A DNA stretch of 64,000 nt from Pascua guehoae. Taxonomy: Eukaryota > Basidiomycota > Tremellomycetes > Trichosporonales > Trichosporonaceae. The notes below the pieces were generated by a model. That model saw only the letters and a list, made by a program, of their open reading frames with translations, ran no database searches and had not been told where the DNA came from. Positions 32,449 to 54,587 of the stretch are shown here, one piece after another; positions within the stretch are counted from its first letter, which is position 1, and every line of letters begins with the position of its first letter. The stretch spans positions 315,782-379,781 of the forward strand of contig BCJX01000019.1 of the NCBI GenBank assembly GCA_001600415.1. Direction: 5' to 3'. The position numbers and the translations under genes are program-made.

Positions 32449-33011
32449 TCTGGTACAGTCCTTGGTGCTACATCTGTTACTGATGCTAAACTGTTCTGAT
32501 GCTACAAACTGTTACTGATGCTACAAATGGCTGCTGGCCGTACAAACTCACTGCCTACAACCTACAAACCTAGACGATTCTTCTAATCGAATAGCGACAT
32601 AAACCATACACGGCCTTTTGAGTTGTCAACGAGTGTACGATGTCAAATGAAGCCGCCCCGCCCAGTCCGAGGCAGGCTGCGGTACGGTGGCGTAGGGTAC
32701 CGCGGAGGTGCGGTGGGCGCAGAGTCGGTGGGTGGGGTCGGGGAGCGTCCTATGGATGCAGAGTAGTTTGTCGGGAGCGACGATAGGCTCGACCCGAACG
32801 AGGAGGCAGGTGCGAGGGCACTCTGGGGCGTGAGGCGCTGCTGGGGCGGTTGGGATTCCGTGGGCTATGGGTGAACAAAGGGAGTAAATGTTGTCGGAGA
32901 ATGGAGCTCACCATTCTTGGGCGTCGGGCTTGAGGGGTTGCTCGAGACGGGCCGGGTGCATCGGGGGGGATGCGAGACGACGAAGGGGAGTTATGCGACT
33001 GGAGGAGCATG
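32449..33011. other. Left part of the inserted block, downstream of X1
   Basis: Begins exactly where similarity to copy B ends. At 32468-32530 a short tandem array of CTGTTACTGATGCTACAAA-like units sits at the junction. The remainder to 33011 is GC-rich and has no recognisable coding content; it should include the 3' end of X1. A candidate small intron near the X1 stop (about 33018-32995) was seen but is not needed. Confidence 0.5.
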
Positions 33012-34320
33012 TCAGTTGCATGTCACCATTCTCATCGCATTGCTCACGGCCGAGTTGCCATGGCCGGAAGACCGAGTTGGTGCATTCCCGTACGAGCCTG
33101 GTGGAGGTAGTGCTCTGGGTATGGTAGTGATGCCGCGTGTACGCGTGAGGGCTCTTGGCAAAGCTCTTGGACGTGTTGGACGGGTGCTCGTGGGCACGAG
33201 GGGAATGTCTGGACACTTGTTGGACATGTTGCTCAAGGTCATGGCCGCCATGGCCTCAACAATGGAATACGTGCTGGTGTCTGAGCCTGACGAGGCGGTC
33301 GAGTTGTGGCCGAATGGCTTTGAGAAATAAATGCCTCGTGCCCCGCAATATTGGGGATTGGCCTCGGGGACGTAAACGACGACGAAGCGGTTGCCGGTTG
33401 TTATGAGACCGTAGGTGGTGTTGGTGAGCTTGCAGTACGCAAACACCTCGAGGAGAAGCGCAAACATGGCATGCTCTTGGTCGGAAAGGGAGCGCTTCCT
33501 TTTCGCATGCTCGGAATTGAAGACGGCCACGTCGGGACCTTTAGTGCTGCCGTCCTGTGTCTCGAGCTTAGCCCACGATGTGCCGTTCCAGTCCTCGAAG
33601 CACTGGAAGACGGCATCAGAGACGACCTGGTGCCTCTTCAACTCGGCAATGCAAAGTACGACAAGGCTGCCGTCTGGGGCCTCGACAATGATACACCTGT
33701 CCATGCGGGCGTTGCGTTTCCTGTCGGCAGAAGGATGATACCCCACGGTATGCTCCGCATGGTATGTCGGTGGCGTATAAATCGCTGGTACGTGGAAGGC
33801 CGAAGTCGCCATTATGTCGTCGAGAACGTCGCTCACACCTGCGTCAAGCTGGCGGCCCATGTCTGCCTCGCTGTAGACCTTCTTGGCACGACGCGCCTGC
33901 GAGTCCTCAACCGCACGGCGAAGGAGAGCAGTGAGCTTGTGCGGACAGTCCGGGATGCCCGCCCCAGCGAGCTTGGTGTGGAGCTGTTCGACAGCGTAGA
34001 CAAAGCTCGAGTCGTCCTCGTTCATCGGAGACACCGAAACGCGTTTGCCCTTGAGTTTCTCAGACATGATGTATTCCAAGACAGGCTTTACGCCCTTGTA
34101 CGCCTTCTTGTCATCGTCGTCGTCATCGTCCCTCCCCCGCGCCTGCTTGGGCCATGCGATCTTGGGCGTAGGGTAGTCCTCGAGGAACCGCCTCCACTGA
34201 GGACATCAGCACGATGAAAACGGGCCAGCGTACTGAGACACCGTCATCCTTTCCATCCTTCCGTTTCATCCACCCCGAGCCGGTCCTGGAATCTGGCGTG
34301 GGTGTGTGTGTTGTGGGCAT
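33012..34320 (-). CDS. X1: unknown protein with PD-(D/E)XK-like signature, module copy 1
   Basis: Two exons, 34320-34234 and 34196-33012, with a 37 nt GTACGC...CTCAG phase-0 intron; 423 aa. No named family recognised. After an Asp-rich patch (residues about 48-56) comes a KGVKPVLEYIM block. Then comes the core: ARMDRC (Asp about 195), VVLCIAELKRHQV (Glu about 214, Lys about 216), EVFAYCKL (Tyr about 283) and GLITTGNRFVVVYVPEA (about 292-308). D, then ExK, then Y, then a buried strand with TTGNR is the layout of type I restriction HsdR-like PD-(D/E)XK folds. The tail is Pro/Thr/Arg-rich. X2 at 53.7-54.6 kb shares all these blocks and the acceptor position before WxxFL. It is head-to-head with Y1. 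Nuclease activity is inference. Confidence 0.75.
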
Positions 34321-35334
34321 ACGGTTGTGTCTGCTGATATAGTGAACAAGGGTAGAGGGGTGGGGGCCGGTGGGGTGGGGNGGGGGGGGGGGGGGGTTGC
34401 ATGCCGCCCGTCCTGCTTCGCTTATGAGTGCGCGACGGGCTGGTTGAGTTACACTCCATGCGAGGTGACCGATGCGAATTAGTATGACCCATCCCTGTCG
34501 AGCTCTGCAACACGGCTGTCTGAAAGTTGTATCGCCACTGAGGGGAAATAGGTACCCAGCTTCATACACCCCTCATATCCTGTCCCAGTGTCCCAAATGG
34601 CATAGCCACAAAGGGGTAAACTGTGCTGTGGTGCATCAAAGGCGCCAAGCTCTACGTGGTCGACATGCAGCTTTTGCTCAAACGACGCACCGCCACCATC
34701 TTCCCGGCCTCTGTGTGACTGAATGAAGATGTCAGCCCAACTGCCTTGGAGACTGTGACGAAAATGAATGGGGACGCGTTAGGCGAGGAGGGGTGGTGCA
34801 GTGCCCCAGTGCACCGCAAAACACCGCCATGCTGCCATGCGGCTCACGGAGGTAGGATCCTGACGGCCGAGGCTTCAAAGGGCCAGGTTTCGTGTGAGGA
34901 GCTAGCTGTCTTTCTCTAACTTTGTCTCGTAGATCGCACAGGTCCGCATCGCGTTCCATCGATGACTAAAGAGGGGGCGCATTTCGTTCCATCCAGTTGT
35001 GGTAGAAGAGTGCCGGGTTCCAGAACTCGATGCACAGCATGCACAGCCGCCGACTGGCCATTGGTTTCAGACAGCACCGCAATGTGGAAACTTGCAAACG
35101 ACGAGAACATGTCAACAAACCCAAACCCTTTACTGCCCCTCGCGGCAATGGCAGGGCGGTGACAGGGTGAAACGCGCGACCCCACCAGTGCCAGCACTGG
35201 GTTTGACACCAAACGTCATGGGTCGCTGGTGTTTATGTAATAAAATCAAACCCAACCGGCCATGTTATAAGTCACACCGCTCAACATTCATCCTCGGCAT
35301 CGTCCAATCTCTGCACCATCCACCAACATCAGTC
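34321..35334. promoter_or_regulatory. Shared upstream region of X1 and Y1
   Basis: 1014 bp between divergent start codons. It includes an almost pure G tract at 34377-34396 with an unresolved base at 34381, only ~60 bp upstream of the X1 start. No specific regulatory site recognised. The equivalent region of module copy 2 (52611 to about 53650) is of similar size but I see no long conserved stretch. Confidence 0.4.
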
Positions 35335-36756
35335 ATGACGATGGCGGAGAACAACATTGCCCCATCCATCGAAGGGTTTCCCCGTTCTGAATGGTACGAC
35401 AATGACTACGCGCCCCCACCATACCCGGACGACGACGGATGGGGCCAGGTGCTCTGGGCTGGCCGCCTAGCAAGCCAACACTGGGCCGAGATGGCAAAGA
35501 AGGAAGACTGGCAAGAGATCGATGACCTGTGCTTCAAGCTGGCGGTCTTTGACAAGGCCGACGCTCTGTGAGTCCCCGCTGCCAATGTTGTAATGAGCGT
35601 CTGGAGCTTGACTAGCTGTCGACTAACCACACAGATACAAGCTATGGCACAGAACACCCGAAGGAGGACCACTAGCCACATTTCAAGAGTGGAAGGACAC
35701 GATGGCGGATGCTGTGGCAGAAGCGTACTACGAGGTGGGCACTTGGTCGGCACCTTGCATCTTGTCTGACAACAGGCCGAGGAGAGGCTAGAGAAAGCAC
35801 GACACCAAAGGCAAGCCCAGTCACATCCACTGCCCGAGTCTGCATTCTCGTCCTTGGAAGATGTCACTGCCTGGTGCCAGACGGCTTTCAACTGGGTCTA
35901 CGAGTCTGGCTACCACGCATGGCGGTACCCAACAGATTTCGAGTCGTACCCAAAGATCAGGGCTGAGAGCTACCGCGCTTTTCATCCCAACGGCAAGGAC
36001 CGACACGGCCATGTGCGCTTCCCTATCGCGGACCTACAAGAGACTAGATTTCCGTTTTGGGTCGGACCGCCGGGCACGTTTCCAGGCTACGATGCTCTCA
36101 ACGATTCCAGCGACGACGATGAAGACGACAACAAGGCCCGACGGAAGAAGGCGGCGACGAAGGACACGGGCTCTGGTCCCTCGGCGGCCTCGCCTTCGAC
36201 ATCGATCAAGCGCAAGCGCACCGAGGAACCCAACGCCGAGGTCAGTGCGCTCCCTTCCGACCAGCTGTCCCAACACCGCAGGCTGGCGAGCAAAGTGGTC
36301 CTCGTGGTCAATCACCTCCGGCAGGTGGCGAAAGTGACCATTACCCGAAACGGCAGCGACGCGACGATGGTGGATCCAGCCAAGGATCCCGAGGTGCGAC
36401 ACCAGCTCGAGATGGCGACGGCGGTGATGAGCAGGATGTTCCGGGGCCAACCATCAGCACTCCCGGCGGTGATGGCCCCGACAGCGACACGCCCAACGCA
36501 GCCGCCACGGATTGACACGACCATGAGACCACCACACCCACGCCCGACGGTCCTCTCCCGGACCCGGCCGACAGGACTAGCGAGGAGCGCGCAGCAGGAA
36601 GTACTGACGCGGGAGGTGGACATTGAGACTGGAATGTCCTTTCTGCATCCTAGATTGATACCGACAGATCATCCGCCTTACGGCTCCATACATCCCATGG
36701 AGGATGGCAGGTCGCGAGGAGTGATTGGGAGGTTGTTGAGAAGAGATCGGGTCTAG
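35335..36756 (+). CDS. Y1: unknown protein of the CFKLAVFDKA family, module copy 1
   Basis: Three exons, 35335-35567, 35635-35734 and 35776-36756; 437 aa (a second ATG two codons later is possible). The N-terminal ~200 residues align with Y2: FPxxxW, a PPP stretch, ASxxWA, then IDxxCFKLAVFDKAxxL at the exon 1/2 junction, then LATFQEWKDTMADAVAEAYY and SSLEDVTAWCQTAFNWVYES. Both introns interrupt the gene at the same positions and phases as in Y2 (introns of 67 and 41 nt here). The C-terminal half is charged and Pro-rich, with SIKRKRTEEP as a possible nuclear signal and a helix-rich QHRRLASKVVLVVNHLRQ. No signal peptide or membrane segment. Always adjacent and divergent to an X gene in this window. 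Function unknown. Confidence 0.75.
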
Positions 36757-36799
36757 ATTCATGTTGTACATCGCCATGTTGTGTCATTCGCAGTGCGCC

Positions 36800-37385
36800 T
36801 CAGCTTGTATCATCTTTCAGCAGGACAGGTTTCACGTCCTTCCGTATAGCGTCTTCCATCACGCCCTCGTTGGTTGCCGTCCTGGCTCTGGTCACTGGCC
36901 AACTCGGTTGGCCGAACGGTCTGGTCAGTCGCACGCTCAGACGCTTCAACCCGAGGCGCACTGTGGTCACGTGCATGACAGGTATTGCGTCAATGTCCGC
37001 GGACCGAGGCATACAAGTTGCGGCGCGAGTGCGCGGGTGGGGTGAATGCCGCGTAGAGCGTTTCGCTGGGGTTAGCGGTGTACTTGGGGGTTGAGGCGCG
37101 GGGCGACGGCTGGGAAGAAGCAAGTGGGAAAGCAGTGTAAAGTGGAGCCGACGCGTCACACTTACCCAATAAACCTAACGGCCGTCACGTCCCCACCACA
37201 CTCGTCGGAGCGGTGCAGCATGCCCTGCTTGACGAGGCGCCACGGCTCCGTCTCATGGTCCCAGCGGCGGACGCCAGGTACGCAGCGATAGAGCGCGAGG
37301 CCGCTGCCGACGCCGACGACAAAGAGGTTGCCCCACTTGAGGTGCTCGCGCTTGAGGAAGGCAATGCCGTCATGCGCGCCGTCGT
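36800..37385 (-). pseudogene. 5'-truncated gene fragment inside the inserted block
   Basis: Minus strand: an exon fragment (about 37385-37166) encodes FLKREHLKWGNLFVVGVGSG, and further on ECGGDVTAVRFIG. It ends at a consensus donor, GTAAGT (37165), and splices in frame over 56 nt (acceptor TTCCCAG) to an exon at 37109-36800 ending in LLKDDTS and a stop. The coding sequence stops being plausible where repeat copy B begins (37369), so the 5' part is missing. The VTAVRFI end is reminiscent of a WD40 strand, but I do not recognise the gene. It lies 43 bp from the convergent Y1 stop. Confidence 0.45.
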
Positions 37386-37452
37386 CGTGGGCGAGGAGAG
37401 TAAGGGTATCCAGATGCCGGTGTATGTGCGCCGCTTGGAGGGCGAGGAGGTG
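37369..37452 (+). pseudogene. 3' fragment of the P450 gene in repeat copy B
   Basis: Encodes [20 protein letters not shown], the C-terminal end of the P450. The codon that is the stop in the intact gene (GAG TAG) reads GAG GAG here, so the stop is lost. There is no upstream P450 sequence, so it cannot make a P450. Confidence 0.85.
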
Positions 37453-37554
37453 GGGCGGGTATCGGAATGTGGTGGGATGAAGGTCCCGCCGGTGTGGATG
37501 TGGATGTGGAGTGGAGGTGGATCGGGCGTGAGGATGAATTGTAGCCAGACGCAA

Positions 37555-37596
37555 TAGTACACGATTGTAGTACACGATTGTAGTACACGATTGTAG
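37555..37596. repeat. 13-bp tandem repeat, three units
   Basis: Three perfect TAGTACACGATTG units followed by TAG, inside repeat copy B. Copy A has one related unit at about 31244-31257, so the array expanded, or contracted, after duplication. Confidence 0.9.
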
Positions 37597-38168
37597 GTCA
37601 GGAGCACGCCAGGTGCGGTAGTGAGTGCAGTAATGAACACTGTTTATGGCCAAGGATGCCTTGTTTCTGGGATCTGGGAAGAATAGTCGCCAACACGAGG
37701 CCGGATGTCACTTCGGCCACTGCCCGTTCCTGGTCGGCCAAGACCGATATACTGTACAGTACCGCAGGACGTGCCAGTGCAGATTGCAGGATTAGAGTGG
37801 GGCACAGCGCACGACCCCAAGAGAGTGCAGCACGAGCAGTGTGTGGGACAGCACGACGGACCCGTGAAGCGACATGCATGGAGCGAGGGCGCTCGGTGTA
37901 TGAGTAGGCGGCGTCAGAACGCCGACCCGTGCCAGGCCAATATGAGCGTGGCTGGCTATATACTACAGTTCTGCACTGTACAGCGTGCAGGTGAGAGTTG
38001 GTAGGTACTCTATCCCACCTCTGCGTGCGGTGCATTGACGTCCGAGCCAATGTGGGACCTGCTGTCGTGGCTTTGCGTGCACAGGCCTGCCCGGTGGCTC
38101 GCCGTACCACCTAGAAGCTAGCTAGCAGCTACTGTCGCTGCTGATCGTATCGTGTTCCAGGCGGCTCG

Positions 38169-39590
38169 TCAAGCGCGAAACTGCGCCGGCGTGTCGGGCT
38201 GGTGCATCCAGTCTGCCGCGACAAAGGCCGGGAGCTGCGAAATGTGCTTGAAGATTGAGTTGAGGGTGGGGTACTTGTCGATCTGGGCGCCAAAGCTGGA
38301 GTGCGTTAGTGATGGAATCTTGGGGGCCGGGGNNNNNNNNNNNNNNNNNNNNNNNNNNNNNNNNNNNNNNNNNNNNNNNNNNNNNNNNNNNNNNNNNNNN
38401 NNNNNNNNNNNNNNNNNNNNNNNNNNNNNNNNNNNNNNNNNNNNNNNNNNNNNNNNNNNNNNNNNNNNNNNNNNNNNNNNNNNNNNNNNNNNNNNNNNNN
38501 NNGAGGGGGTCAGGGGGGAGAGAGCAGAGGAGCATTGGCGAAGTGTAAGGGGCAGGACGTAGACTAGAGGGGCAGGACGTAGAGTAGAGGACAGGACGTA
38601 CCGGATGCACGAGTGGATTTGGGGCGCGAGGGCAATGTCTGCGAGGGAGAGGGCGTCGCCGTAGCAGTACCGTCCCCCCGTGGAGGTGTGGAAGACGAGT
38701 CCTTCGAGTGCTGTGTGTGAGCGTGGGGGAGGAGGGAATCATGGAATCATGGAATCGAATCATGGAATCGTGGTGGAGCGACCCCCTTCGCGGCTGAGTA
38801 GTGGGACTATCGGGTGCGACGCCATCAGCGCCGGAGCTTGATGTCAAGCACCCGACCCCAGCGGCGCTGGAGCTTGGTGTCAAGCACCCGACCCCAGCGG
38901 CGCCGGAGCTTGGTGTCAAGCACCCCACCCCATCGGCGCCCTCGAGCTTGATGTCAAGGAGCCTCCTATGCTGTCTGCCAAGCGGAGCCTCCTATGCTGT
39001 CTGCCAAGCTCTTAATCCGCAATGCGTCCTTTGCTGACAAGGGCATTATGGATGGTGACTCGCTCGTCCTCGAACAGAGTACCAGAAATTCCAGTGGCAC
39101 AGCATTGTAACGCGACCACCGACTCACCACGGAGCCCACACTCGGCCGCCTCGCGCCCCCACTCCTGGTCGTCGACGCCGCGCGCCTTGAGGCGCTGCAT
39201 GACGCGGAGGTTGGCCAGGGGCTGCATGTCACACACGACCGTGTCGACAATGCTGCGAATGACTGCCCGTGCGCGCGCATTGCCGTCGGATTCGGCCGGG
39301 AGGAGGCGGCCAGTGGCCGACTGGGCGCCGTACACTTCGTCAATGTACTCGAGAATCGCCGCGCTCTGGGTCAGCGCCCACTGCGTGCCGTCCGTCTCGC
39401 GCACGACGAGCGCGGGCACCGTCTGCGACGGGTTGATGGCCGTGTACTCTTGCGTCCGCTGCTCGCCCTTGAGGAGCGCGACAAAGCGCACGTCGTGCGG
39501 GACATCGAGCACGGCGAGGAGCGTGCGTACCCGCGTCGCTGCAGAGGACCGAAAGTAGGTGTAGAGCGTCAGGTGCCTTGTCGTGGTCAT
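38169..39590 (-). CDS. maiA: Maleylacetoacetate isomerase / zeta-class glutathione transferase
   Basis: Three exons, 39590-39128, 38710-38602 and 38295-38169; 232 aa, the normal family size. The thioredoxin-fold half has the zeta-class motif FRSSAATRVR (active-site Ser at about residue 15) and INPSQTVPAL followed by LTQSAAILEYIDE. The helical half has GRYCYGDALSLADIALAPQ and the ending AADWMHQPDTPAQFRA, typical of this enzyme. It converts maleylacetoacetate to fumarylacetoacetate with glutathione, the penultimate step of tyrosine/phenylalanine breakdown through homogentisate, in the cytosol. Intron 1 is unusually long (417 nt) and contains minisatellites; intron 2 contains an assembly gap. 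It is divergent from TF2. Its 3' end is duplicated in repeat copy A. Confidence 0.92.
38333..38502. other. Assembly gap (N)
   Basis: 170 unresolved bases in intron 2 of the isomerase gene. The flanks are G-rich (GGGGGCCGGGG and GAGGGGGTCAGGGGGGAG), as at other unresolved spots in the window. The gap length may be nominal. Confidence 0.98.
38832..39009. repeat. Two adjacent minisatellites inside isomerase intron 1
   Basis: About 3.4 units of a 36-bp repeat (GGAGCTTGRTGTCAAGCACC and 16 more bases) at 38832-38957, then two perfect 26-bp units beginning GGAGCCTCCTATGCTGTCTG at 38958-39009. They explain why this intron is far longer than others in the window. Confidence 0.9.
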
Positions 39591-40701
39591 CGTGCGTCCG
39601 TCGTCGTCTGATATCGATGGTGCTGGTGCTGGTGCTGGTGCTGGCTGCGTTGATTGCGCTGGTTCTGTTGACTCCGTTGGCTCTGTTGGCTCTGCTGCAT
39701 ACTGGACGTGTGCATGGTAAACTCTGCATGATATAGAACTGTGATATCATCGCATCGGTCGACCGCCTCGGTCAAAGCCGTCAACTGACCGGTTACCGCG
39801 GCAAGTCGGTCCGCGGCCCATCCGCGCCCCCTTTGGCAGCCCGTGGCGAGCCAGTCAGAGCGGTGCCATAGTCGGGGTCATGGTAGTAACCTCCATTTAC
39901 CCCCCTTTTCATCCATTCAGGTGACGTACGAGTGGACAAGGCGACGCTTCGAGACCACACCCCGCTGCCCCCATTCCAGGTGCCTTATGCTCGGGGAGGG
40001 GGAGACTCTCAGGCGGGACCCAAGAGTCCGGGTCTCGTCTCCAGGCGTCGCGGTGCCCAGGTCGGTCGAGGTCTTCTGACCGTCCAGAGCTCTTGGACTC
40101 GAGTCTTCTGACAGTCCAGAGCTCTGGGACTGGAGGATCCAGATGTCTGCCGTGTCAGATGAGATGGGCATCTGCGCAGACGCATGCGGGGCCAGGCAAC
40201 TGCAGGCAGCTACAGGCAGGCCACGACATGTCAGCTGGCAGCCCACGACATGTTGTTCATGTCAGCAGCTCTCACCTAACCAGTAGCCAGTTAGTTTGCT
40301 CGCAGCCTGGGAGCTGCACAGCTGCACACTGTTGCTAGCTCGATGCGGGCGGGCATGCACACGAGTCGACAAGGTGAGAAATGAAACAGGTGTCTCGAGT
40401 GTTTGAATTCCATCTTGTTCAACTCGACAACAAGTGCAACACGAGCCACCATCCATCCGCAACTGCAACCGCAAACGCCTCCTCCGTCGCGCCTCCGCCC
40501 CCGCCAGCCCCGCGCCCCGACCCCCCCCCCCGCCCCGCCCCGCCCCCGTACAGTACGCCCGCGCCCTACGCCGCCGGCTGTCTCGCCCCCGACTGGTTTA
40601 CCCAGACCCCCTCAACCCACCTATTGCCGTGATCGACGCTACGCAGTGTGCGAACCAAGCACCCAGCACCAGCGCACGAGCCCACATCCAAGTTGCACCC
40701 C
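39591..40701. promoter_or_regulatory. Shared upstream region of the isomerase and TF2 genes
   Basis: 1111 bp between divergent start codons. A repeated CTGGTGCTGGTGCTGG tract lies at 39620-39645. Near 40081-40130, GTCCAGAGCTCTTGGACT and GTCCAGAGCTCTGGGACT form two direct copies of an imperfect palindrome centred on GAGCTC, a possible regulator site. CT-rich sequence leads into TF2. Confidence 0.45.
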
Positions 40702-43423
40702 ATGGGCCACCACCACCAAGACCAAGCCACCACGGCCACCACCCTCGCCCAGCATCAACAGCTCTCTCCACCCCTCACCGCCGACGACGACTATTCTCAC
40801 TCTCCACCAGACGGCAATACCACTACCACTTCCACCACCCACAGCAACAACAATAGCGACCACTTTGACCACCTCTTTGACCCCACAACTACCCTTTGCT
40901 CCTTTGACGATTTCTTCTTCCTCCATGATCCTTGCGCGCCGGCAGACACCATGCCGGGCCAGGAACCATCAGACACGAGCACCAGCAGCACCAATAACGA
41001 CTCTACGTCCCACAACAACCGCCAGGACCGCATCCGCACCCTGCGCGCATGCTCGACATGCTCGGCCCGCAAAGTCAAGTGCGACGGCCAGGACGAGTGC
41101 GCATCCTGTCGCCGCCTCGGTGTGTCGTGCGTCTACGTCAACTCGGGCAAGAAGCGGGGCCCACCAAAGGGCTCCCCGGCCCGTGGAGGCAAAAGGAAGA
41201 AGTCGGATGCAGTGAGTAACCCACGCCACCACCACTTTCCAACTGTAAAACTGTACACAATAGTGTGGGAAAAAAACTGACCACACCCATCCTTCCGTGT
41301 AGGCCCCGCTACACACCGACAACACGGGATCGAGAATAGACTCAAAGTCGGCGTCGGTGGAGCGGCGCACATCGGTAACATCGGCGCCAGTGACCGTCCC
41401 CACGCCGTCGCTCCCTACGCCGTCGCTCCCTACGCCGTCGCTACCTACACCCACCTTGCCCACACCCGTGCTGGATACATCCGCCGGCATCGACGCCGCC
41501 CTCGACTCGGTCCCAGTCCCCACCGAGGTGCGCTTTGCCGACGACTTTTGGGGCGACTTACTCAACTATGGCCCCTTGTCCCCGCTCAACGCGACGGGGC
41601 TCTCGCTGCCGCAGCACCCCAAAGTCGTCGACTTTGTGTCCCCCGCGCCCCCGCTTGCGGCGGCGTCGACGCCCGGCGCTAGCTCGGTCGCCGGGTCAAT
41701 TGCGCAGCATGCAGGTCTGAGCGACAATTCAATTGACCGGCTGTTACTCATCTACGAGACGTTTATCCAGCCGACATGGCCAATCATCTACCTGCCCGCG
41801 CTGCGGTCGCTGCGCAGCCTCGAGACCGAGAGCCCGCTCGTGTTTGACGCCATCCTCGCCATGGCGTCGGCCCACTGGGACGTCGACACAGTCCCCGAGG
41901 GCATCTTCCTGGGCGACCCCAGCCGCACAGCCAACCTGAGCCCTCTGACGGCGCTGAGCGAGACGCTCATCGAGAGCGTGCGCCAACGCATCCTCGCGTC
42001 GTTTTCACTGCGTCCTGAACTCGGGACCGTCCAGGCGCTCCTGCTCGTGACCCTCGTCGACTTTGGGTATGGACGCACGTCGCTTGCGTACCAGATGGCC
42101 GGGATTGCGTCGCGCATGGCCATTGACCTGGGCCTGCACTCGCAGGGCCCCGTCAACGGGATGAGCGTGGCTGGCACACCCCAGGCGGGTGACATTCGGC
42201 GGCAGCAGGAACAGTGCCGCACGCTGTGGGCGTGCTTTATCATTGACAAGATTCTTGCCGCGTCGCTCCAGCGCCCGCCGCTGTTGCGGCACGCCGACAT
42301 TGACACACCACGCATCTCGACCATGGAGCGCGACGAAATGGACCTGTGGCTCGCGGGCGGCGCCGCGCAGCACTTTGTCCAACCGCATGCGGTCGCGGTC
42401 ATGGAGCAGGCCAAGACGCACGCACTCACGTCGTTCAACGCCTGGTGCGACGTCATGTGCATCCTCGAGACCATCCTCGACGAGGTCTACCGCCCTGCGC
42501 CCCGGCGCGCGCGCATGAGCAACCAGCAGGCCGCGGGCTACGACGAGGTCGTTGCATACATTGACACCGAGCTGCGGCGGTGGCGCGTCAACCTGCCCCA
42601 GCACCTGCGCTGGACAGACGACACGCCCGCTGCCCATGCCAATATCGGAACACACATTCTCACCATGCGCGGGTGGTACCACGCCTGCATGCTCCTCCTG
42701 CACCGCCCGCGCGTGCCGTACCTCGACACGACCGCCTCGCCCGATACAGACGCCATCGAGGCCCTCCAGCAGCTGAAACGCGCCCCCGACACGGGGCCCT
42801 CGCACCACCACGTCCGTCTCCCCCAGGGCGTCGACGCGTCGCGCCACGCCGCAACGGGCATCTGCACCATCATGGAGGCGTACGAGCAGACATTCCGCGT
42901 GCGCAAGTTTCCCTCGTCGTGGGTCTACCTCGCGTTCCAGGCAGCCACCGTCCACGCCGGCCTCGCGTCACGCTGTATCCCCGACCCCCGCTCCGTCCTG
43001 TTATCGGCACGCACCGACCCCGTGTTCCGCTTTGAGCAGTGTCTCCGCTGGCTCGAGCAAATCTCCGTCAGCGTCCCCAGTGCGAGGACCCATGTCGACA
43101 TTCTCCGCAAATTGTACGCCGTCGGCGCACGCACTCGCCCACCCTCACCGGCCCCCGACCACCCCCAGTCACAGACACAGACCCAACCTCAGACACAACT
43201 GCCCCCAATCTCCACTGCAGTCGTCCCGTCGTCGGTATCGCAGCCATCCACAGCACTCTCATTCGACGCAAACCCAAACCCGTCCCCCATCGACCCACAG
43301 ACCCTGCCGCCACTTGAGCAGTCGGCCCTCATCGACAACTGGATGCTTTTTTGGGCATCCATGCCCATCGGTAGCGACGACGCGTCCCTCTGGCAGTCGT
43401 TTAACGAAATGTTTAATCTCTAA
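40702..43423 (+). CDS. Zn2Cys6 fungal transcription factor (TF2)
   Basis: Two exons, 40702-41211 and 41303-43423, 876 aa. The zinc cluster is C-STC-SARKVKC-DGQDEC-ASC-RRLGVSC (CX2CX6CX5CX2CX6C, about residues 117-145), followed by a basic patch KKRGPPKG and GGKRKK. A Pro/Thr repeat (SLPTPSLPTPSLPTPTLPTP) is encoded by near-perfect 15-bp units at 41402-41465. The large remainder is a fungal-specific regulatory domain (YETFIQPTWPIIYLPALRSL, TLWACFIIDKILAASLQRPP). The N-terminus is His/Thr/Asn-rich. It is divergent from the isomerase gene, which it may regulate; that is inference from position only. An upstream in-frame GTG extends the frame, but ATG 40702 is the first ATG. Confidence 0.9.
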
Positions 43424-43474
43424 AAGGGAGCAAAAGTGTCGTGGTGTGAGAATCGTGTTCACGAGGTAGGGGGT

Positions 43475-43535
43475 GGTCGAGTGGTCGAGCAGTCGAGCAG
43501 TCGAGCAGTTGAGCAGTCGAGCAGTCGAGGCATCG
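43475..43535. repeat. Short tandem array GTCGAGCA
   Basis: About seven imperfect 8-bp units of GTCGAGCA in the region immediately 3' of TF2. Confidence 0.8.
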
Positions 43536-45071
43536 CGCGGTCAAACGGTCGGGTCGTGGATTGTTCGTTCTTGTATATGTACATACTCCATGTATCTGTT
43601 GTGGGCCGGCCGGGCACGTGCCCACTGACAGTTTCTCTGGCGATATCGATCCGACTGGGCGTTTCTTCCACACCCATACGAGTCTGATTCACAGCGACCG
43701 AAGAAAGCTCTTGGCGCTTGACAGCCTCCTCACCTCCCCGAACCGTCCCCCAACACAACCCCGCCCCGCTCTTTGCGGAAATCCACAAATCCACACCACG
43801 CCACAGGCGCCCTACCTAGCACCTACGTATACTCCGAGCGACGAACCACCAACGCGACAAAATACGTAACGAAGCGTCCCTCGGTGGCTTCTGCGTTTCG
43901 CGCAACGGCGGCAAAGTAGACAAGTGCACTCGGCCCGTGAGCTGCTCGAACAACAAATCGACGACGACGCAGTCGAGCGCCGACATTTGGCAAAGACGTT
44001 GACGTGTCGGCTGGCGCACCAGACGGAGGCCCGACGGGGCGTCCCTCCCTCTCCTCCCTCGCCTTCCCTCCCGTCTATTGGGATCCCCCAAACACCCCCC
44101 CCCCCCCCCGGCGGTGGGTGGGCGAAGCCCGCTCACAGTACCCCGCGGTGCAGGCCTCGCGGATCCCTTTTTTCACACGAGAGCGAGGTGACGCACACCT
44201 GAGCGTGCGGGTACGAGGGAAGAAAAACGTCGAGAATGGTAGTGTTGGTGCGAGTGAGGGAAGGTGGTCGATACCGAGCAAGAGGCGTCCAGATTATTTC
44301 GGAACACGTACTCGACTACCTTCCGCCCTCACACGCGCACTCGGTTGCTGTCCCACAATTTGCCAGATGGGACCTGGATTTGGCAGAGTGGAGAGCACTT
44401 GGTGGGAAGCACAGACGGACACAAGGACGTCCCATCTGTGACAGCTCACTACACGCCCCCACGCCCGTCCTCCTCACACTATCCGACCCAACCCCACCCG
44501 AAACCGACTGGGCAGAAACACAGGATCCCGTCGTCTGCTCACTCACACTCGACGAGCCCGCCTCCTTCGTCCCTCTGATCCGACTGACGATACCCCGACC
44601 TGATCCACCCGCGCTCCATAAGCGACCTGACGTCTACAGGTGCGTCCGAAAGGCCATGAGGCTACGTTCAGCTCGGCCAGGCCAAGATGCGCAAACGCGC
44701 TCTAGCCACCAAACGATGGCACGGCAAGCAACCCACACCGATGTTCACTACTCGTTGCACCTTGCGTGTGCGTGCACCCACGCTCAACGTGGCAGTCTCA
44801 CGACTTTCCGGACGTGTACCTCGACGAAGCGAATCTCAAGACACCAATAGACGCGTGTCACTACCAACCAGTCGCAAAAGCAGTGCCAGCCGCTACTTGA
44901 TGGCCGCGCCGCACGCCAAAGGTGTCGACCGCTGGTGCGGTCCATGGTGTGATGGGGTACACGAACATTACCGCGCCGTCGTGACATGTGTGCCAGTGAC
45001 GCAGCAATGAGCGGCCAGTTTCTCCTCGTACGAGCGGCACTGTCCACTCGTCCGTCGCAACGCGACCCACG

Positions 45072-45668
45072 GAGTATACAATCATTCAAGTGCAGCCAAC
45101 CGTGACGTAGGTAGGTCTCGTCAGTGCCGGCCAGCGCCTCACGGCTCGTCACTGCTTCACGATGCAAAGTGTGTGCGCCAAGAGCCAGACGCCCGCCCCG
45201 GCTGGTCTCCCCCTCCTCCCCCACTTGAACTCTCTCCCGTCCCATCCCCGTACTGTGGACCAGGACCCATCCACACCACGATCTGAACGCAAGCAGTAGA
45301 TACCGTGTGGTAGAGCCCTCACGCACGCCTCCGACATCCTCACAGCCATGCCGTGAAACGCCGCCCACTGAGTATACAATTATTCAAGCGCAAGAAGCCC
45401 ACTGTGGCGTAGGTAGTCTCGTCAGTGTCCAGCGCGTCGCAGCTCGCTGCTCCTCTTCATGCACAGTGTGTACGCCAAGAGCCAGAAGCCCGTCCTCGCC
45501 GTCCTCGTCTTCCCATCCCATCGTCCCCTGCTTGAACCCCCCGTCCTGCCCACGTACTGCGAGGACCCATCCCCACGACACGGATCTGAACGCAAGCGGC
45601 ACACGGTGTCGAGTGGAGCCCACGCCTCTGACACCACGCAGCGTTCCCACACACGCCATGCTCGTCTC
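45072..45668. repeat. Diverged tandem duplication, period about 298 bp
   Basis: GAGTATACAATCATTCAAGT at 45072 and GAGTATACAATTATTCAAGC at 45370 start two units that can be followed side by side: GTAGGTAG-TCTCGTCAGTG, AGTGTGTRCGCCAAGAGCCA, GGACCCATCC, GATCTGAACGCAAGC, CGTG. The units differ by many substitutions and small indels, so the duplication is old. No coding capacity recognised. Confidence 0.8.
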
Positions 45669-45867
45669 ATGGATCTGGCCGGCCGCCGGACAGTGACCTC
45701 GTACTAGGGACTGACCCAGGACTTGCACAGTATAAGATGGCCCACTGCCCAGTCGCAGACTTGAATCACCACCATCACCACCACTCCCATAACCCCTAGG
45801 CACGCCCTTACCACAGCGCCCACCTCACCCCCACCTCGACCACGCACGCACGCACGACCAACTCGCC

Positions 45868-46990
45868 ATGGGCCTCCTCGACTTTCTCCACGCGTCGGCC
45901 GGCTCGCTCGCGCCCGTCTCGCCCCCGATCGGCGTGCATGCCCGCATGCTCGCGGCGGAACGCACGTCGCTCGTCCTCCAGGAACGTATGATGTCTATTA
46001 GTGGGGTGCGTCTACGGCCGCTTGGTGGTGGTGCACAGTGCAATGGTGCAATGGTACAATGGTGCAGCGGTGCAGCGGTGCAATGCCGGTGCAAGGCAAG
46101 GGATGGGCTCACGCCAGGACGACTTTAGCATCACCAACGCCGCGACGGGCGCGGCGGTGCTCAAGTGCTCGGGCAGCATGTTTTCGATGCACGACCGTAA
46201 GAGTGAGTCTGGCACGTTGCGTGAGCGGGGTATGGGCATGGGCGATGGGCCAGCTGAGAACGACACGTACGGCAGTAACAAGAAGCGAAAGATGCTCGTG
46301 GCATGGGAGAGACAGCCTGGCTCAGACCACGAAAGCGCCAGTGACTGAGTAAAGCGAACAGCATAAAGTGAACAGCAGCAGGATGCTCTCCTCTCCTCTG
46401 GCCACCTGCAAAGAACCATCCCTGACGACAACAGAGATCAAGGCCCCCGACGGCTCGCTGCTGTTCAACATTGCGACCAAGCTCGCGGACGGCGACGAGG
46501 TGTTTTACATGTTTGCGGCGGACGCGACGGGCGCCGAGGTGCTCAAGGTGTGGACCAAGAAGAGCCGTGAGTGGAGCGTGAGCTAGCGAGCGTCAGCGAG
46601 CGGCAGTGAGAGCGGGCGTGAGCGGGCGTGAGCGGGCGTGAGCGTGAGAATGGGGATCGTGATTGCCAGTATGCCAGTAAATCCGCCCGTGAGAAATCGC
46701 AGGGAGGGTCGTCAAACACGCGCTAGGAGAGTCGGCATGGGACTTGCACCAGGACGGCGACTGTCGTCCGTGTACTCAGGACATGGGTCGAATGATACAC
46801 TGCAGCTCACACCAGTCGGCTCCAAGCTCGAGGCCAACGTGCGCCTCTTTGACGGGCGCTGGGCCGACCTCGTGCTCTCGGGCGACTTTTGGGGCGGCTC
46901 GGCCAACATTACCCTCAAGAACGGGCCGGCGCTCGCGCATATTAGTCGCCAGGTTGCGAATGTTGGCGAGGCGCTGCGGGACCAGCAGAC

Positions 46991-47021
<31 letters not shown>

Positions 47022-47318
47022 TGGGTGCTGGCGCGGGCGTGGAATTGAGGAGTGGGAGGGGGGCGTCACGGTGGATGCGGCGGAGCGGAAGAGGGGAAAA
47101 GAAACGGAGAGGAAGACGGGCCCAAAGAGTGAGGGCACTGAGGGAGCGAGGAATGACCATGACCCGCGGAGGTGGACAGACGACCCCGAGTCCAAAACTC
47201 ATCCCAGTACTACCTCACAGTCGCGCAGGGCGTCGACATGGCGCTCATGGCCGCGCTGTGTATCTGCTACGACGAGTTTGAGAACGAGAACAAGAACAAG
47301 GACAAGGACGACGACTAG
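45868..47318 (+). CDS. LURP-one-related / tubby C-terminal-like protein
   Basis: Five exons: 45868-46005, 46118-46202, 46435-46566, 46780-46991, 47208-47318; 225 aa, usual for the family. The strand pattern is typical of LURP-one proteins: FSITNAATGAAVLKCSGSMF, then an API-like hairpin IKAPDGSLLFNI, then VLKVWTKKSR, then DTLQLTPVGSKLEANVRLFD, and a C-terminal hydrophobic helix (GVDMALMAALCICYDEF) that in tubby-like folds fills the barrel. It ends in a Glu/Lys/Asp tail. The family is related to tubby and phospholipid scramblases; its molecular role in fungi is not settled. Intron 4 contains a (GT)n microsatellite right at its donor (46992-47021), and intron 3 contains GAGCGGGCGT repeats. Confidence 0.85.
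46992..47021. repeat. (GT)n microsatellite at an intron donor
   Basis: GTGAGTGTGTGTGT... begins at the first intron base, so the splice donor is embedded in the array and several GT dinucleotides compete nearby. Confidence 0.9.
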
Positions 47319-49188
47319 GGGACAGTTGAGGTCGATTCGGATCGTACAAGGGACCATGGAAAGTTGTAAAGGCGGTGAAAGCAGTTGAACCATGGATGTG
47401 AGGTTGTCGTGGAATGCGAACGGGTGTCCGCCGCTGATGGCCTTGTTTCTCACCCTCGCCTCCTAACGCCCCACCCCCGCGGTCCGCCCGTGCCCCGGCC
47501 GTGCATTGTCCCGCTTAACGAACCTCGCACCCCATCTCGCTCCGTCCCTTTCCCCTAGCTGCACGAGTAGCGGTGGCGAAGTCAGACAGCCTTCCGTAAC
47601 ACTGACGAGTTGGGATCAGGTAACCTCTGCAATAGCACCACGAAGCCGCGCCATCCATATACCCAAAAGGTATCATAAATACCGTCGAGAGGGCATGCCG
47701 GCGGATTCGCTTCATGAACATGTCGTGGGAACGCGGCTGAGAGCGTGTACTATTACAAGCTCATCTTCACGGCGAGGTAGGACAGAAGAAAGTGTTGACA
47801 CGAGTGACGTCCAGGTCTCCTGCGTCTCATGTGTACTGCTCGGGTATCATGCCGCTTTCACTTCACTCACACGACCTGGCAGAGCTGATTGCCGGCTCCA
47901 GGACCACCATGCACTGTGTACGTCTGCATCGCAGGTCGTCGACGAATGGGAGAATATGCGCCAGAAAGACTTGCCAGGCGCACGGGCGCACAGGCTATTG
48001 GGACAAGGGTCTAGGGCCGTGTCGCCGAGAACACCGAGACAGTGTACGTCTTCCACAAACTCCAACGTTGAACACAGCCAAAGCCACTCCGGACAGGATC
48101 AGTAGGCACGGCGATGTGCGCTTTCGCTTGCAGACTGCGGATTCGATAACGCAGGCCACAATGAGATTTCATGCAGAGAAGTGCTGGGTCGCAGGATCGG
48201 GGGCTCGACCGGAAAGTTTAAGCCAAACGCGTTCACTATCTACCGAGAATGCTCCGTCGACCGTGACGCGTGTGGCGGTCTCGATATCCGGCGGACCATG
48301 CCCAAATCCGCGGCTTGAGCGGCACCTAGCCAGCTAATTCCGTGAGTTACCGCCACGCGAGCATGCATGTGCAGTGTGGAGGGCACGGGGTAACTACCTG
48401 ATACAGCTCACGCGCGCTGTATGGAGCGAGAATGCCCCGTTCAGCAAGCGATTGGTAACCCCCAACGCGCACGGGACGGCGTTAGGCGGTATAGGGGGAA
48501 CTGAAACGGGTCACGAACGCCACGCCGCGTCGCCAAGCCGTGCCTCCCTGGCGCCATTGCCGTGCTTGTCCATGTTGGGGTGCCACATGCTCCGGCTCGA
48601 CTTGGCGCGCGGCATGCGCGGCAGTGGCATCGCAGGTGTGGTGCAGAGATGGGCACATGTGCAGGCTGTACAGCACAGGCAGAGATTACATGCACATGGC
48701 CCTATGCTTGGTACAACGCAAGGAAGTGATCCCCATTCAATCGCACTCAAATCGCATTGTGACCCCCACGCGAGGGGTTAGCAGCGCGCCAACGCAGGTC
48801 TCGCGACCGTTCCGCCCCGCCCAGCCCCGGAGTCCCCGGAGCCACTCGTCGGCGCTACCTTCGGACCACGTCACATACACTCCGCTCCGCATGCGTGCAC
48901 GCGACCAGCGCTGCATAGGCTGTCACGGGGCTTTTGCGGGCGAAAGCACGGGGCCACGTTTGGGTTGCGTAGCTGCCATCGCGTGCCTCTCTCACACGTC
49001 CCGTGGGGGTTCCACACGATCAGCGCATCGCTCCGGCACACGACAACGGAGGAGAGGTATACATGGCCGTGCGAATGTAGACTGCAACTGTATATATGGA
49101 CGAGGAGCTTGACAGGCCTTGCACGTCATCGCCCTACACTCTTTGGCACGCCTTGCAGGCACATACAGTACACTCCTCGTCGCCCATC
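47319..49188. other. Intergenic, nothing recognised
   Basis: 1.9 kb between the LURP-one gene and the sugar transporter, with only overlapping low-information frames. A TATATATGG box at 49090-49098, about 95 bp upstream of the transporter start, could be its promoter element. Confidence 0.45.
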
Positions 49189-51091
49189 ATGGCCCCGTCA
49201 CACAACCACGAGCACGTTGGGCACAAGGCGAAACCGTCGGCCATCAACTATGTATCCGCCATCTTTGCGTACGTCCCACCCAAAATGATTAATGGGCACG
49301 GCTGACACACTCCCAGCGCCATCGGCTCGTTTTTGTTTGGTTACGACTCGGGTATCATTGGCTCGGTCATCTCGACGAGCTACGACCAGTTCCACGACTA
49401 CTTTGACAACCCAAGCGAGAATGTCACCGGTGCCGTCGTCTCGGTCTTTGCCGGCGGCGCATTTTGTGAGTCTACATTTTCAATATCGAGATCTGACAAT
49501 AGTCGGCGCACTCCTTGCAGGCCAGACGGCCGATCGTCTCGGTCGCAAGCGGACCATTCAGCTGGGTGCCATCATTGCCACTGTCGGTGAGTACGGGGTG
49601 GTCAAAAAGGAAACATTTCAGGTTGTTAACGTTGAAGGATGTGCCATTCAGACGGGTGCCGTTCACATTGCAATGCTCATCGTTGGCCGCTTCATCGCCG
49701 GAATCTCCATCGGCGTGCTTAGTATGATTGTCCCCGTCTACCAGGCCGAAATCTCGCCTCCTCACGCGCGTGGTCTGCTTTCGGGCTGGACACAACTCAT
49801 GATCGTCTGGGGCTTCTTCGTTGCCAACTGGTGCGTAGCCTTGCCTTCGGGAGAGACTACATTGGAATTTAAACCTGACACGTTACAGGGTTGGCTACGG
49901 CTGTCAATTCCTCAAGGACTCTGCACAATGGCGTATCCCACTCGCTATCCAGATCGTCCCCGCCATTTTGCTCCTTGGGTTCGTCATGTCTCTTACTTTC
50001 CACTCCGTTCGTCCTCTGACTCCACAGGGGTATGTTTGTCCTTCCTTACTCTCCGCGCTGGCTAGCAAAGCAAGACCGTCTCGAGGAAGCAAAGGCGACC
50101 CTCATCCGCCTGCACGGCGGCTCGCGCACCGCCAACACGGCTGTCGTCGAGGAGGAATTCGACGACATGCTCGCGCAGATTGCGTGGGAGCGCGAAAACC
50201 TCGCCACTAGCTACAAGGATCTCGTTGCCGACAAGGCCAGTCTTCACCGTACCCTCTGCGGCTGCCTTATTCAGGCCATGTGCCAGTGGACCGGTGTCAA
50301 TGTCAAGTGAGTCAAAGTTAAACGGGAGGGTTGTGTGCTAACACGAATCAGCAACTACTTCGGACCCACCATTTACGCTGCTCTTGGTTTCGGTGGCCAC
50401 ACGACGCTCATGATCAACGGTATTTCCGGCGCTTGGCAGGTGGTTGTAGTCTGGGTCTTCATCCAGTTTATCGGTAAGTTTACACCGTTATACGGACGCT
50501 TTAAACCTTTTTGTTGACACACCAAGTCGACCGCATGGGCCGCCGCAAGCCACTCATTATTGGCCCCATCCTTATGTGCATCTTCCTCGCATGGCAGGCA
50601 GGTATTGCCTCGCTCTTCGCCAACCCCGACTACAAGAATGAGGGCGTTGGCATTGCCGGTGTCCTCTCCATGTTCATGTTCTCGGGCGCCTTCTCGGCGT
50701 CCTTTGGACCCGTCTCGTGGATCTACCAGTCGGAAATCTTCCCCATGAACCAGCGTGCGCTCGGAACGGCCGTTTCCACCGCATCCAACTGGCTCAACAA
50801 TGTTATCATTGGCCAAGTCACTCCTTATGGCTTCAAGACGCTCGGGTGGAAGTACTTTTTCGTCTTTGTCGCCACAAACATCAGCAATGCGGTCGTTTCC
50901 TACTTCCTCTTCCCCGAGACAAAGGGCAAGACGCTCGAGGAAATTGGTTAGTCGTTCTTCACACAGAGACGAGTGCTTTTACTGACATCCCAGGCCTGCT
51001 CTTCGGAGACACCAATGTCCGGACGTTCGAGGGCGGCGATTCAAAGGCCGAAGTCGTCGACGACGAGAGGTTTGATTCGCACAAGGCGTAA
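49189..51091 (+). CDS. MFS sugar transporter (sugar porter family)
   Basis: Nine exons: 49189-49268, 49317-49465, 49503-49586, 49638-49830, 49889-49978, 50028-50306, 50352-50473, 50527-50946, 50994-51091; 504 aa, normal for 12-TM sugar porters. Signature blocks in order: FLFGYDSGIIGSV in TM1, QTADRLGRKR in loop 2-3, GRFIAGISIGVLSMIVPVYQ, LPYSPRWLAKQDR before the central loop, QWTGVNVNYFGPTIY in TM7, DRMGRRKPL in loop 8-9, and FPETKGKTLEEIG at the end of TM12. It should carry out proton-coupled or facilitated uptake of a hexose, pentose or disaccharide at the plasma membrane; the substrate is not deducible. Introns are short (37-58 nt). The gene ends 195 bp before the Y2 stop (convergent). Confidence 0.93.
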
Positions 51092-51285
51092 GGTTTTGGA
51101 AGGAAACGAGTCGGATCGAGGTCGTGCCAATGTGGGCATGGTACAGTAGTAAAGTATTTATCAACAGAGTAATGAAATGTGAATAACAGTATTGAGAAGG
51201 GAAGCAAGGTCAAGGTGTGGATCGCGGGCGCAAGCTCGATGGGGCTGAGCGGATGCTTCTATGCTACAAAATGAAACTCGGGACA

Positions 51286-52610
51286 CTACTCATTGTCTTC
51301 TGCTTTCGTGGCAGAATCAGTTGGGCTCGGCGACTTGGCAGCAGCTGTCACCACGTTGCCTGAACTTGTGTCTGATGGCGCGGCGGGCGGTACGCCTGGT
51401 GAGGGTGACTTTGAGGCATCCGCCTTGTGTCCTGGGGAGTCGGTTCGGGAAACTTTGGATATTGGGGATGCCACGTCTGCATTGGATGGCTCGGAGGCTG
51501 TGCTCGTGCGTGTGGAGTTGTCGCCATCGGTGGTGTCGGACGCGTCATCTCGTGTCGTTGCATCTGTGTCGGCGGTGGTGCCTGCAGGTCGGGGCAGTCC
51601 TCCCTTGGGCGACGGCGATACCGCGTGCCCCTCGATTCGCACTCGTTTCTCTGGCGATGCGTGCGTGGGTGAAACACCCGCCTCACGGCCCGCCTGAGCT
51701 TGCTCACCCTGCGTGGTTGGTAACTGCACACCGGGGGTGGAAGACCCACCTCGGTCGCCTGGAGCGGCGGCGAGTCCACGCGTTTGCGTTTCTTGCGTTC
51801 CGCATTCTCTTGCTCTTCCTTTTTGCGGGCCTCTTTCTCCTTCATTAGCGTGAGAGTGTCGACGACGCGAATGTTACGGCGATCGCCACGGTAGACCATC
51901 TCGTCATCAAAGTCGTCCAATGGAATGACGGTCGTTGTCGTCTTGATTTCGCCACTGTAGAAGCGGGGGTTGGGGTCGAATGGGCCATACTCGGAGGCCT
52001 CCACACCCACTTGGTCGAAGAATGGTTCCCAGGCGTAGAGCCCGTCCATGAAGCCGACATCGAGGGCACGAAGGCAAAAGTCCTCGACGGCAGAGCGATC
52101 GCCGATGGTTCCGAGGTCGACGGCCGCATTCGCTCGCCTGAGGTCGTTGACGGCCTAGAGACGTTAAATCAAGTGCTGGAGTTCGGAGCGTGCGACGTAC
52201 CGCTTTGTAGGCCAGGTCCACGAATTGCGGAATGAAGGCCATAAACTCGTCATGAGTTTCGAACGGTGTACCCTTTTCAGGTTTGTATCTACTCCAGGTT
52301 CTCAGCCTGAAAACGATGTCAGCGTGAACAGGAGCAAACCACCCTTTCTATAGCCTTACAGAGAATGTGCTTTGTCGAAAACGGCAAGTTTGAAGCAGTA
52401 CTTGTCGATACTGCTCAGAGTGCCATCGGCCGCTGCTCTGGCCCACGAACGACTAGCCTCACGGGCTGCATACAGCGCCCAGTCTTGTTGCGTTTTGATA
52501 AAAGGCGGTGGGGCAATGGGGCCCCAATGGTCCCGTGGGAAGGAGAGGTCACCTCCCCAACTGTTCTTTGGAAACCTGCCTGATAGACCAGGCCGGGGTG
52601 GCGATAACAT
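51286..52610 (-). CDS. Y2: unknown protein of the CFKLAVFDKA family, module copy 2
   Basis: Four exons, 52610-52360, 52306-52201, 52154-51750 and 51708-51286; 394 aa. The first two introns fall at the same codons and phases as in Y1. Shared blocks: RFPKNSW, APPPF, AREASRSWARA, IDKYCFKLAVFDKAHSL, LLRTWSRYKPEKGTPFETHD, SAVEDFCLRALDVGF. The middle has a highly charged helix (MKEKEARKKEEQENAERKKR, then KRKRV), a possible coiled coil or nuclear signal. The third intron (41 nt, GTGGGT...CGCAG) was chosen because it opens a Ser/Thr/Asp-rich tail ending KAEDNE; without it the frame ends at 51348 with an Arg/Pro-rich tail. No domain recognised. Divergent from the broken X2. Confidence 0.7.
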
Positions 52611-53697
52611 GGAGGATGGGGTGTGGGCGAATATCTGCTGAATACGAACACAGTGGATGCTGACGCGGATGGATGGATCGGTTTGAAGATGAGTTGATGG
52701 GGTTGAAAGAGAGGGGTGTTGGAGGGAGACGTTGGTGCGGAGTGATATTTATGCTGGTGTTTGGCGAGTTGCCCTACCTACAGTACTGTACTGTACGTAA
52801 GATGCAATGCTGTGTAGTTCATCCCGCATAGAATTAGGTTGAAACGGCCAGGGGGCCAGGGGAAATTCCCCTGTACTTGTAAGGGGCCAGAGTCTATTGG
52901 TAAAGGGGGGTGAGACGACACTCGTTTCACATCCGCACAGCCCATACATGACTTCTCCCCATTTGACCTTGTGGTTGGACTTTGACGGACACAGCCATGC
53001 TCAAGTGGAACGGTAAGCATTGCAGAATTGCCAACAGATGGGGCCAAGACGGGGGCGGGAAGCTTTCACACTCGAGGGGGGCCAGAGGATCGCCTCAACG
53101 AACATCGCGTTTCCGCACAGCCATTCTCATCTTTCCCACCCAAAGGCAAGCGTGAAGCTGAAGTCGGCCCATCCTTTCCCTTCCACCTTCGGCGTGGCAA
53201 AAGCGAAGGGTGCGTTTCGCCTGACACCGCTACTTGGCGGTGCTCATACGTTCAGTAGGTAGCTGTGCCTTTCCGAAACTTGATGATACATACCCCCACT
53301 CTCTGTTACAGTGGGCTGCGTGCCGGGAGGAGAGTCAATCTTGTTTGGGACGTGTTTGGGACGTCTCAAGTGGCTGTGGTTGCTGTGATTGCTGTTCTTC
53401 CCGCAACTTTCGTTCCACAGCTTTGCCATCTTCATTGACTCCCACAGTGAATTCTGGTTTAGACTACTGTTCCCTCCTAGAAACGTCTCACCTCGGTTTC
53501 AGCGACCCGAAGGCACAGCATAATGTACGCATCCCTCCCCAGATAGAGACGCCTGACGAACATAAGTAGTGGCAGTGATCTTGAATGCCTCTTCAAATCA
53601 CTCACCCTTTTGTCGCCGCCCCATCTCATCGTCCTGATTGTAACTGTCAGTTGCTGCGGGTCTGTGACATCCATGGATAACGGGACTGACGTCTCAG
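52611..53697. promoter_or_regulatory. Region between Y2 and X2
   Basis: Expected to hold the Y2 promoter and the lost or unclear first exon of X2. A candidate X2 first exon (ATG 53585, then GTAACT at 53640) has signals but joins exon 2 in the wrong phase. No other coding content seen. Confidence 0.35.
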
Positions 53698-54587
53698 TGG
53701 TCCCAGTTCCTTCACAACTTCCAGCTTGGCCGTGTAATCTGGTCACACCGGCAGGAGAGAAGGTATCGAAGCATCAAGCCTGTCGTTCAGTTCGCCACCA
53801 AAGACCGAATCCTCGTCGTTAGCCCCTGGGATACGTGGGAGGTTGAACAATTGCTTGCCGACTTCCACCAACAGTTGGGGGAGCCATGCCCACCCCACAT
53901 CGCCAGCAAACTGCACGACAATGAGTGCGACCACGACGCAGAACACGAAACGAGTCTCGGCAGTTGGATTGACGGTCGGCTCTATGACATCTTTCGGTAC
54001 TTGTGGAAGACACGTCACGACCTTTCAACCTTAAGTCGGGATGGGAGCTCACCGGTTTCAAACCAGAGGGCGGTTTCACTTACGACTCCGACAAATCTGC
54101 CCGCACCGACCGATACATTAACGCACGCAACAAGCAGACCCGAAAAATTCGAGTGCTGTTCTTCATGGAGATGAAGCGAGAAGCAGTGGCTCCTGATAGA
54201 GTCTTTCAAGACTTGGACGAATGGCTCGACTACTACGACAAGGCATTTGTAACTATCGACGACGGCAACCTTGAGTCATTGGACTCTCGGGGACGCAACC
54301 TGTCAGCCTACGACGTGGGCTTCACACTCGTTTCTGAAGCAGTGGGCTACTGCGTTACCAACAATACCCCTTTGGCGATCATGACAACCGGCAATCGCTT
54401 CTTCTTCGTCTACATCCCCGATGCACTGTAGACAACGCTCCCAATGAGGTATAGCGTTTTTGTCTCCCCGTCGTACGGCACAGCGTCCCCCATGTGGGAC
54501 AAGTGCTCACTCCTCGAAGCAATCGGTGCTGCAACGTTTTTCACCGTCAGGAAGAATGGCCTTTACTCCTACACGCCCCCACGCTAA
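53698..54587 (+). pseudogene. X2: broken copy of the X gene, module copy 2
   Basis: Similarity to X1 starts right after an acceptor, GTCTCAG (53691-53697), at the same place as X1 exon 2 (WSQFL against WRRFL). It goes on through YRSIKPVVQF and ILVVSP, and FHQQLG plus PPHIASKL. The frame changes at about 54002 (one base short), after DIFRYL. The next frame carries the signature: SARTDRYI (Asp), FFMEMKREA (ExK) and AIMTTGNRFFFVYIPDA. A TAG at 54429-54431 then interrupts, yet in the same frame similarity to X1 continues (YSVFVSP against GIYFSKP; LLEAIGA against IVEAMAA) to a TAA at 54585. No intron with usable signals and correct length removes either lesion. Two independent breaks make this a pseudogene unless they are assembly errors. 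Confidence 0.7.

Follow-up and report, generated by a model that had tools for sequence, protein, structure and literature searches.

A 64,000-nucleotide stretch of the genome of the basidiomycete Pascua guehoae (hereafter the window), lying within contig C19 (BCJX01000019.1), carries two copies of a head-to-head pair of genes, X and Y, in which X is predicted to encode a nuclease and Y a partner protein: X1 with Y1 (pair 1) and X2 with Y2 (pair 2). Both belong to a dispersed family. Every X that was found in the genome, 16 of 16, stands head-to-head with a Y, and the X and Y proteins have diverged together. Pairing and co-divergence show functional coupling of the two genes, or at least their joint inheritance. 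The explanation that we favour, at somewhat less than an even chance, is that these are dispersed head-to-head two-gene units working like a toxin–antidote (addiction) pair. X, a nuclease with HsdR/Spok-like motifs, would damage DNA, while Y, read from the divergent region that the two genes share, would restrain its own X. Loss of Y alone would then harm the cell; loss of X alone would not. Cleavage by X, its toxicity and its neutralisation by Y are steps that we only infer, as is the balance between a bias in inheritance and a service to the cell.

Pairing and co-divergence across the genome

The sample is a single genome (GCA_001600415.1, 33.6 Mb in 28 contigs), and gene models throughout are splice models predicted from sequence. 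A search with X1 gave 14 core X loci (15 matches, two of them from a single gene), and two further X queries against the genome gave no X loci beyond these. Y1 gave 31 matches, which, taken together with frame searches and a second query, amount to 27 Y loci. At all 14 core X loci a Y lies head-to-head upstream on the opposite strand, the partner on C17 having been detected first at the frame level only and later completed. An X profile search added two remote X frames (X-II) of 657 and 762 residues, at C7:1302666-1304636 on the + strand (L050 5666-7636) and at C13:8223-10508 on the - strand (L074 24-2309), both beside Y genes previously thought to be single. Each has an exact QxxxY and a TNGNRH/SNGNRH motif and is head-to-head with its remote Y, and a genome search with one X-II query found only these two. 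With X-II counted, the copies are spread over 12 contigs, and one of the 16 pairs carries a broken X (X2). The initial annotation, which had described a module present twice, was right that both window modules exist but understated their number, since the genome holds 14 core and two remote pairs. Its proposal that X and Y belong together is borne out by the pairing and by the co-divergence set out below; within this genome, X homologues come as divergent pairs with Y and not unlinked.

The association is looser on the Y side: 11 of the 27 Y loci lack a clear X, whereas none of the 16 X loci lacks a Y. For ten of the eleven single Y, the scan took in opposite-strand frames of at least 60 residues across some 3.6 kb or more of upstream sequence; for the other, C7a, the locus frames were scanned and the DNA compared. 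Three of them (C7a, C5b and C5d) fall in or beside paired groups (tree support 100/99, 94/92 and 96/70), and the remaining eight (C16, C11, C1, C22, C17b, C13b, C19c and C2b) are remote, and the tree places them poorly. At L049 5150-6313 (C2:59650-60813, + strand), a frame that lies head-to-head with a remote Y is similar to the final part of X (FTGNSHIFIEV..SRAFGS, E 0.0075); it has no clear ExK and is possibly a decayed or inactive X.

For 14 pairs, the X and Y distance matrices are correlated (Mantel r 0.815, p 2e-5, which is the floor of 50,000 permutations), as they are without the broken-X pair (r 0.836, p 2e-5), so the pairs were duplicated as units. With one pair per close group (nine pairs), r falls to 0.42 (p 0.008); much of the signal, but not all, therefore comes from the closer duplicates. 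The starred groups that can be resolved in both trees agree (C14 with C23, these with Y2, C9b with C5c, and C5a with C2a). Starred inner branches make up 6 of 22 in the Y tree and 6 of 13 in the X tree, the remaining forks being weaker, and the two trees arrange Y1, C9a and C8 differently. It had been supposed that one window module was duplicated to give the other. The trees speak otherwise: X2 and Y2 group with the C14 and C23 pairs, X1 is nearest to C9a, and Y1 is nearest to the C7 Y and then to C9a. Neither window module has the other as its nearest relative, and the two are not a local duplication.

Divergent pairing together with diversification might also be produced by a self/non-self recognition system (incompatibility or mating-linked) of matched divergent pairs, by analogy with basidiomycete mating loci, which carry divergent homeodomain gene pairs. 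We regard this as the least probable of the explanations, since Pfam scans of X and Y gave no homeodomain or incompatibility family and the pairs form many dispersed copies instead of a single polymorphic locus. The spread over 12 contigs would in turn suit a transposable element of two genes, or domesticated derivatives of one, with X as part of the transposition machinery; restriction-endonuclease folds are known in some transposition systems. This too seems improbable. When exact inverted repeats were sought between the flanks of 12 pairs (flanks of 333-1000 bp), the longest one went beyond the 95% point of shuffles in no pair and reached it in one. Copies resemble each other at the DNA level mostly within coding sequence, and the C7 copy has flank DNA in common, as is expected of a segmental duplication. 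The core X proteins are, moreover, 27-66% identical and constrained.

The X and Y proteins and the loss of X

The predicted structure of X has a restriction-endonuclease-like alpha-beta core (predicted local distance difference test score, pLDDT, of 82), and D, ExK and (E/Q)xxxY are present in all 15 aligned proteins, that is, the 13 intact core X proteins, including X1, and the two X-II. D195, E214 and K216 of X1 (166, 185 and 187 in the alignment) are invariant across the 13 intact core proteins; the predicted active-site motif that they define occupies 33636..33701 of the window on the - strand (D195 at 33701-33699, E214 at 33644-33642 and K216 at 33638-33636). Invariance and predicted fold together uphold the earlier assignment of X to the PD-(D/E)XK type. 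A hairpin of the predicted strands 162-172 and 178-186 would set D195, E214 and K216 opposite each other, which is consistent with their clustering. In all 13 intact core frames the X profile matches once at full length, with an extra, spurious piece in C9a, and Pfam scans of the X1 and the two X-II frames at E <= 1 gave no helicase and no kinase family. X is predicted to be a nuclease with one domain, which has the restriction-endonuclease fold. In Y, roughly 200 residues form a conserved N-terminal core; the tail behind it varies and often carries a KRKR-like stretch. Y may have a nuclear role. A family search with Y gave no family above the cut-off, and Pfam scans of Y gave no kinase family.

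The ratio of non-synonymous to synonymous substitution rates (dN/dS, NG86) is 0.22, 0.22, 0.31 and 0.20 for X in four pairs, a fifth not being computable, and 0.12-0.26 for Y in six pairs, with 0.31 for exon 3 of Y1 and C7a. The values are rough, since dS is 0.4-3.8, and they show both X and Y to be under constraint. Such constraint, strict pairing and co-divergence are equally expected of an obligate two-subunit nuclease with a cellular job, for example defence against mobile elements or viruses, in which Y would target or activate, X would cut, and the paralogues would have diversified into many specificities; the basic stretches in the Y tails would suit a nuclear protein. This explanation, doubtful in itself, ranks close behind the toxin–antidote reading. 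It accords poorly with the fate of X, because one would expect a cutter that is needed to be retained, whereas Y persists without a detectable X at 11 of 27 loci and X2 decays beside an open Y2. Were it nevertheless correct, X/Y would be a DNA-cutting surveillance system that is unnamed in the family libraries searched.

The C7a locus (L066, C7:316643-321105) has a Y that is 75% identical to Y1 over exon 3, and the DNA flanking pair 1 on either side is represented there too, with no X between. It matches Y1 and positions 32449-32747 of the window, beyond X1, across a gap of 526 bp that corresponds to about 2.6 kb in the window. The X-bearing DNA could be missing at C7 by loss there or by gain in the window; loss is favoured because the relatives are in the paired state. 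In a toxin–antidote system the antidote may stand alone and the toxin may not, and this is the pattern of the counts given above, 11/27 for Y without a clear X and 0/16 for X without Y, a weak agreement with four inferred X losses. One-sided loss of X thus weakly favours an antidote-like Y.

Several observations weigh against a toxin–antidote role. The one-sided loss amounts to four inferred events (X2, C7a, C5b and C5d) against none (sign test 0.06), and eight of the eleven single Y are remote ones beside which this X may never have stood. Close groups supply most of the strength of the co-divergence, and the nearest neighbour differs between X and Y for 4 of the 14 pairs. When X was compared by structure, mitoribosomal chains reached scores as high as those of nucleases, and Y resembles no known antidote in the searches made. 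If the toxin–antidote reading is nonetheless right, the two-gene, many-copy form with its matched divergence would make toxin and antidote separable and swappable, which bears on the origin of new killer specificities.

The two pairs in the window

The divergent arrangement of X1 (33012..34320, - strand) and Y1 (35335..36756, + strand), and that of Y2 (-) and X2 (+) in inverted order, are as the initial annotation had them, as are the motifs shared by the X copies (ARxDR, ELKR/EMKR and TTGNRF) and the IDxxCFKLAVFDKA and two introns at matching places that Y1 and Y2 have in common. Some gene models need revision. X1, by open frame and splice model a predicted PD-(D/E)XK protein of 423 residues, keeps its limits (34320-33012) but requires an intron of 37 nt (34233-34197) immediately ahead of the Trp-30 codon, separating exon 1 (34320-34234) from exon 2 (34196-33012); an AG directly precedes the Trp codon of the X intron site in 12 of 14 core copies. 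The splice model of Y1 gives a partner protein of 437 residues with introns at 35568-35634 and 35735-35775. In Y1 and Y2 the first intron follows CFKLAVFDKA..L and the second lies about 35 codons further; the script used tried two-intron models only, and intron number is therefore imposed for the other copies. The 1014 bp between the start codons of pair 1 (34321..35334) are presumed to be a two-way promoter. Direct-repeat fragments flank pair 1 on both sides (31056-32448 and 37369-38697, 79-96% identity in three pieces), the left one with a sub-threshold glutathione S-transferase C-terminal match and the right one containing a run of N.

For pair 2, the partner protein Y2 is modelled at 51348..52610 (- strand), with introns at 52359-52307 and 52200-52155. 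An end at 51286 had been proposed and is doubtful; 51348 is more likely, because 51286 needs a third intron inside the SYQPRR sequence and the C14 and C23 relatives keep the same C-terminal frame. Position 53698, taken earlier as the start of X2, is instead the start of exon 2, and the most likely start is 53585, with an intron at 53660-53697 placed as in X1. This leaves 974 bp between the modelled start codons (52611..53584). X2 (53585..54587, + strand) is a broken copy: its frame changes near 54015, a TAG interrupts it in frame at 54429-54431, homology runs up to 54587, and X-profile positions 1-114, 113-265 and 279-309 are split among three open pieces; the Y2 frame beside it is open. Part of this damage could be assembly error, though the two lesions differ in kind.

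Elsewhere in the window, short repeats of about 130-140 bp at 31522-31662 and 47628-47757 have dozens of copies across contigs, up to 90% and up to 95% identical respectively. An aminotransferase class V gene at 6188-8503 (+ strand), with 120 hits listed, bacterial where named and up to 64% identical, is a possible horizontal gene; the database seems to be without close fungi.

Comparison with known systems

Spok, from Podospora and Fusarium, has like X a fungal PD-(D/E)XK domain with QxxxY. Killing by SPOK3 requires this domain, whose best HHpred match is HsdR (PMC6660238), and SPOK1 works via DNA damage (PMC9972908). Spok is also multi-copy like X/Y, and antidote-only copies, which give resistance without killing, have been described in Spok and predicted in wtf (PMC12693581). 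As described, Spok fuses nuclease and kinase, the latter for resistance, in one protein, whereas X and Y are separate genes and the scans of X1, X-II and Y gave no kinase family. The N-terminal domain of HsdR itself, from type I restriction enzymes, differs in that X is without a helicase motor and its Pfam scores lie below the curated cut-off. Crinkler-type (CR) nucleases, described as eukaryotic effectors of the restriction-endonuclease fold with a transposon origin (PMC11342252, PMC12693581), have that fold in common with the prediction for X; they differ in that no leading ATPase or kinase domain was seen in X.

The Wolbachia CifA/CifB (CinA/CinB) system is an adjacent gene pair of a nuclease-fold effector and a counteracting partner, with comparable CifA and CifB trees and expansion as a dyad (PMC11342252); X and Y would take the corresponding roles. 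Partner genes that diverged together are found in X/Y as well (Mantel r 0.815, 14 pairs). The bacterial CifB, however, is described as four tandem nuclease-fold domains against one in X, and X/Y is head-to-head; the likeness is one of description. When membership was tested, X/Y belonged neither to Spok nor to CifA/CifB. That it works like a toxin–antidote pair is plausible because, as Spok and CifA/CifB illustrate, there are toxins of nuclease fold that come with a resisting domain or partner.
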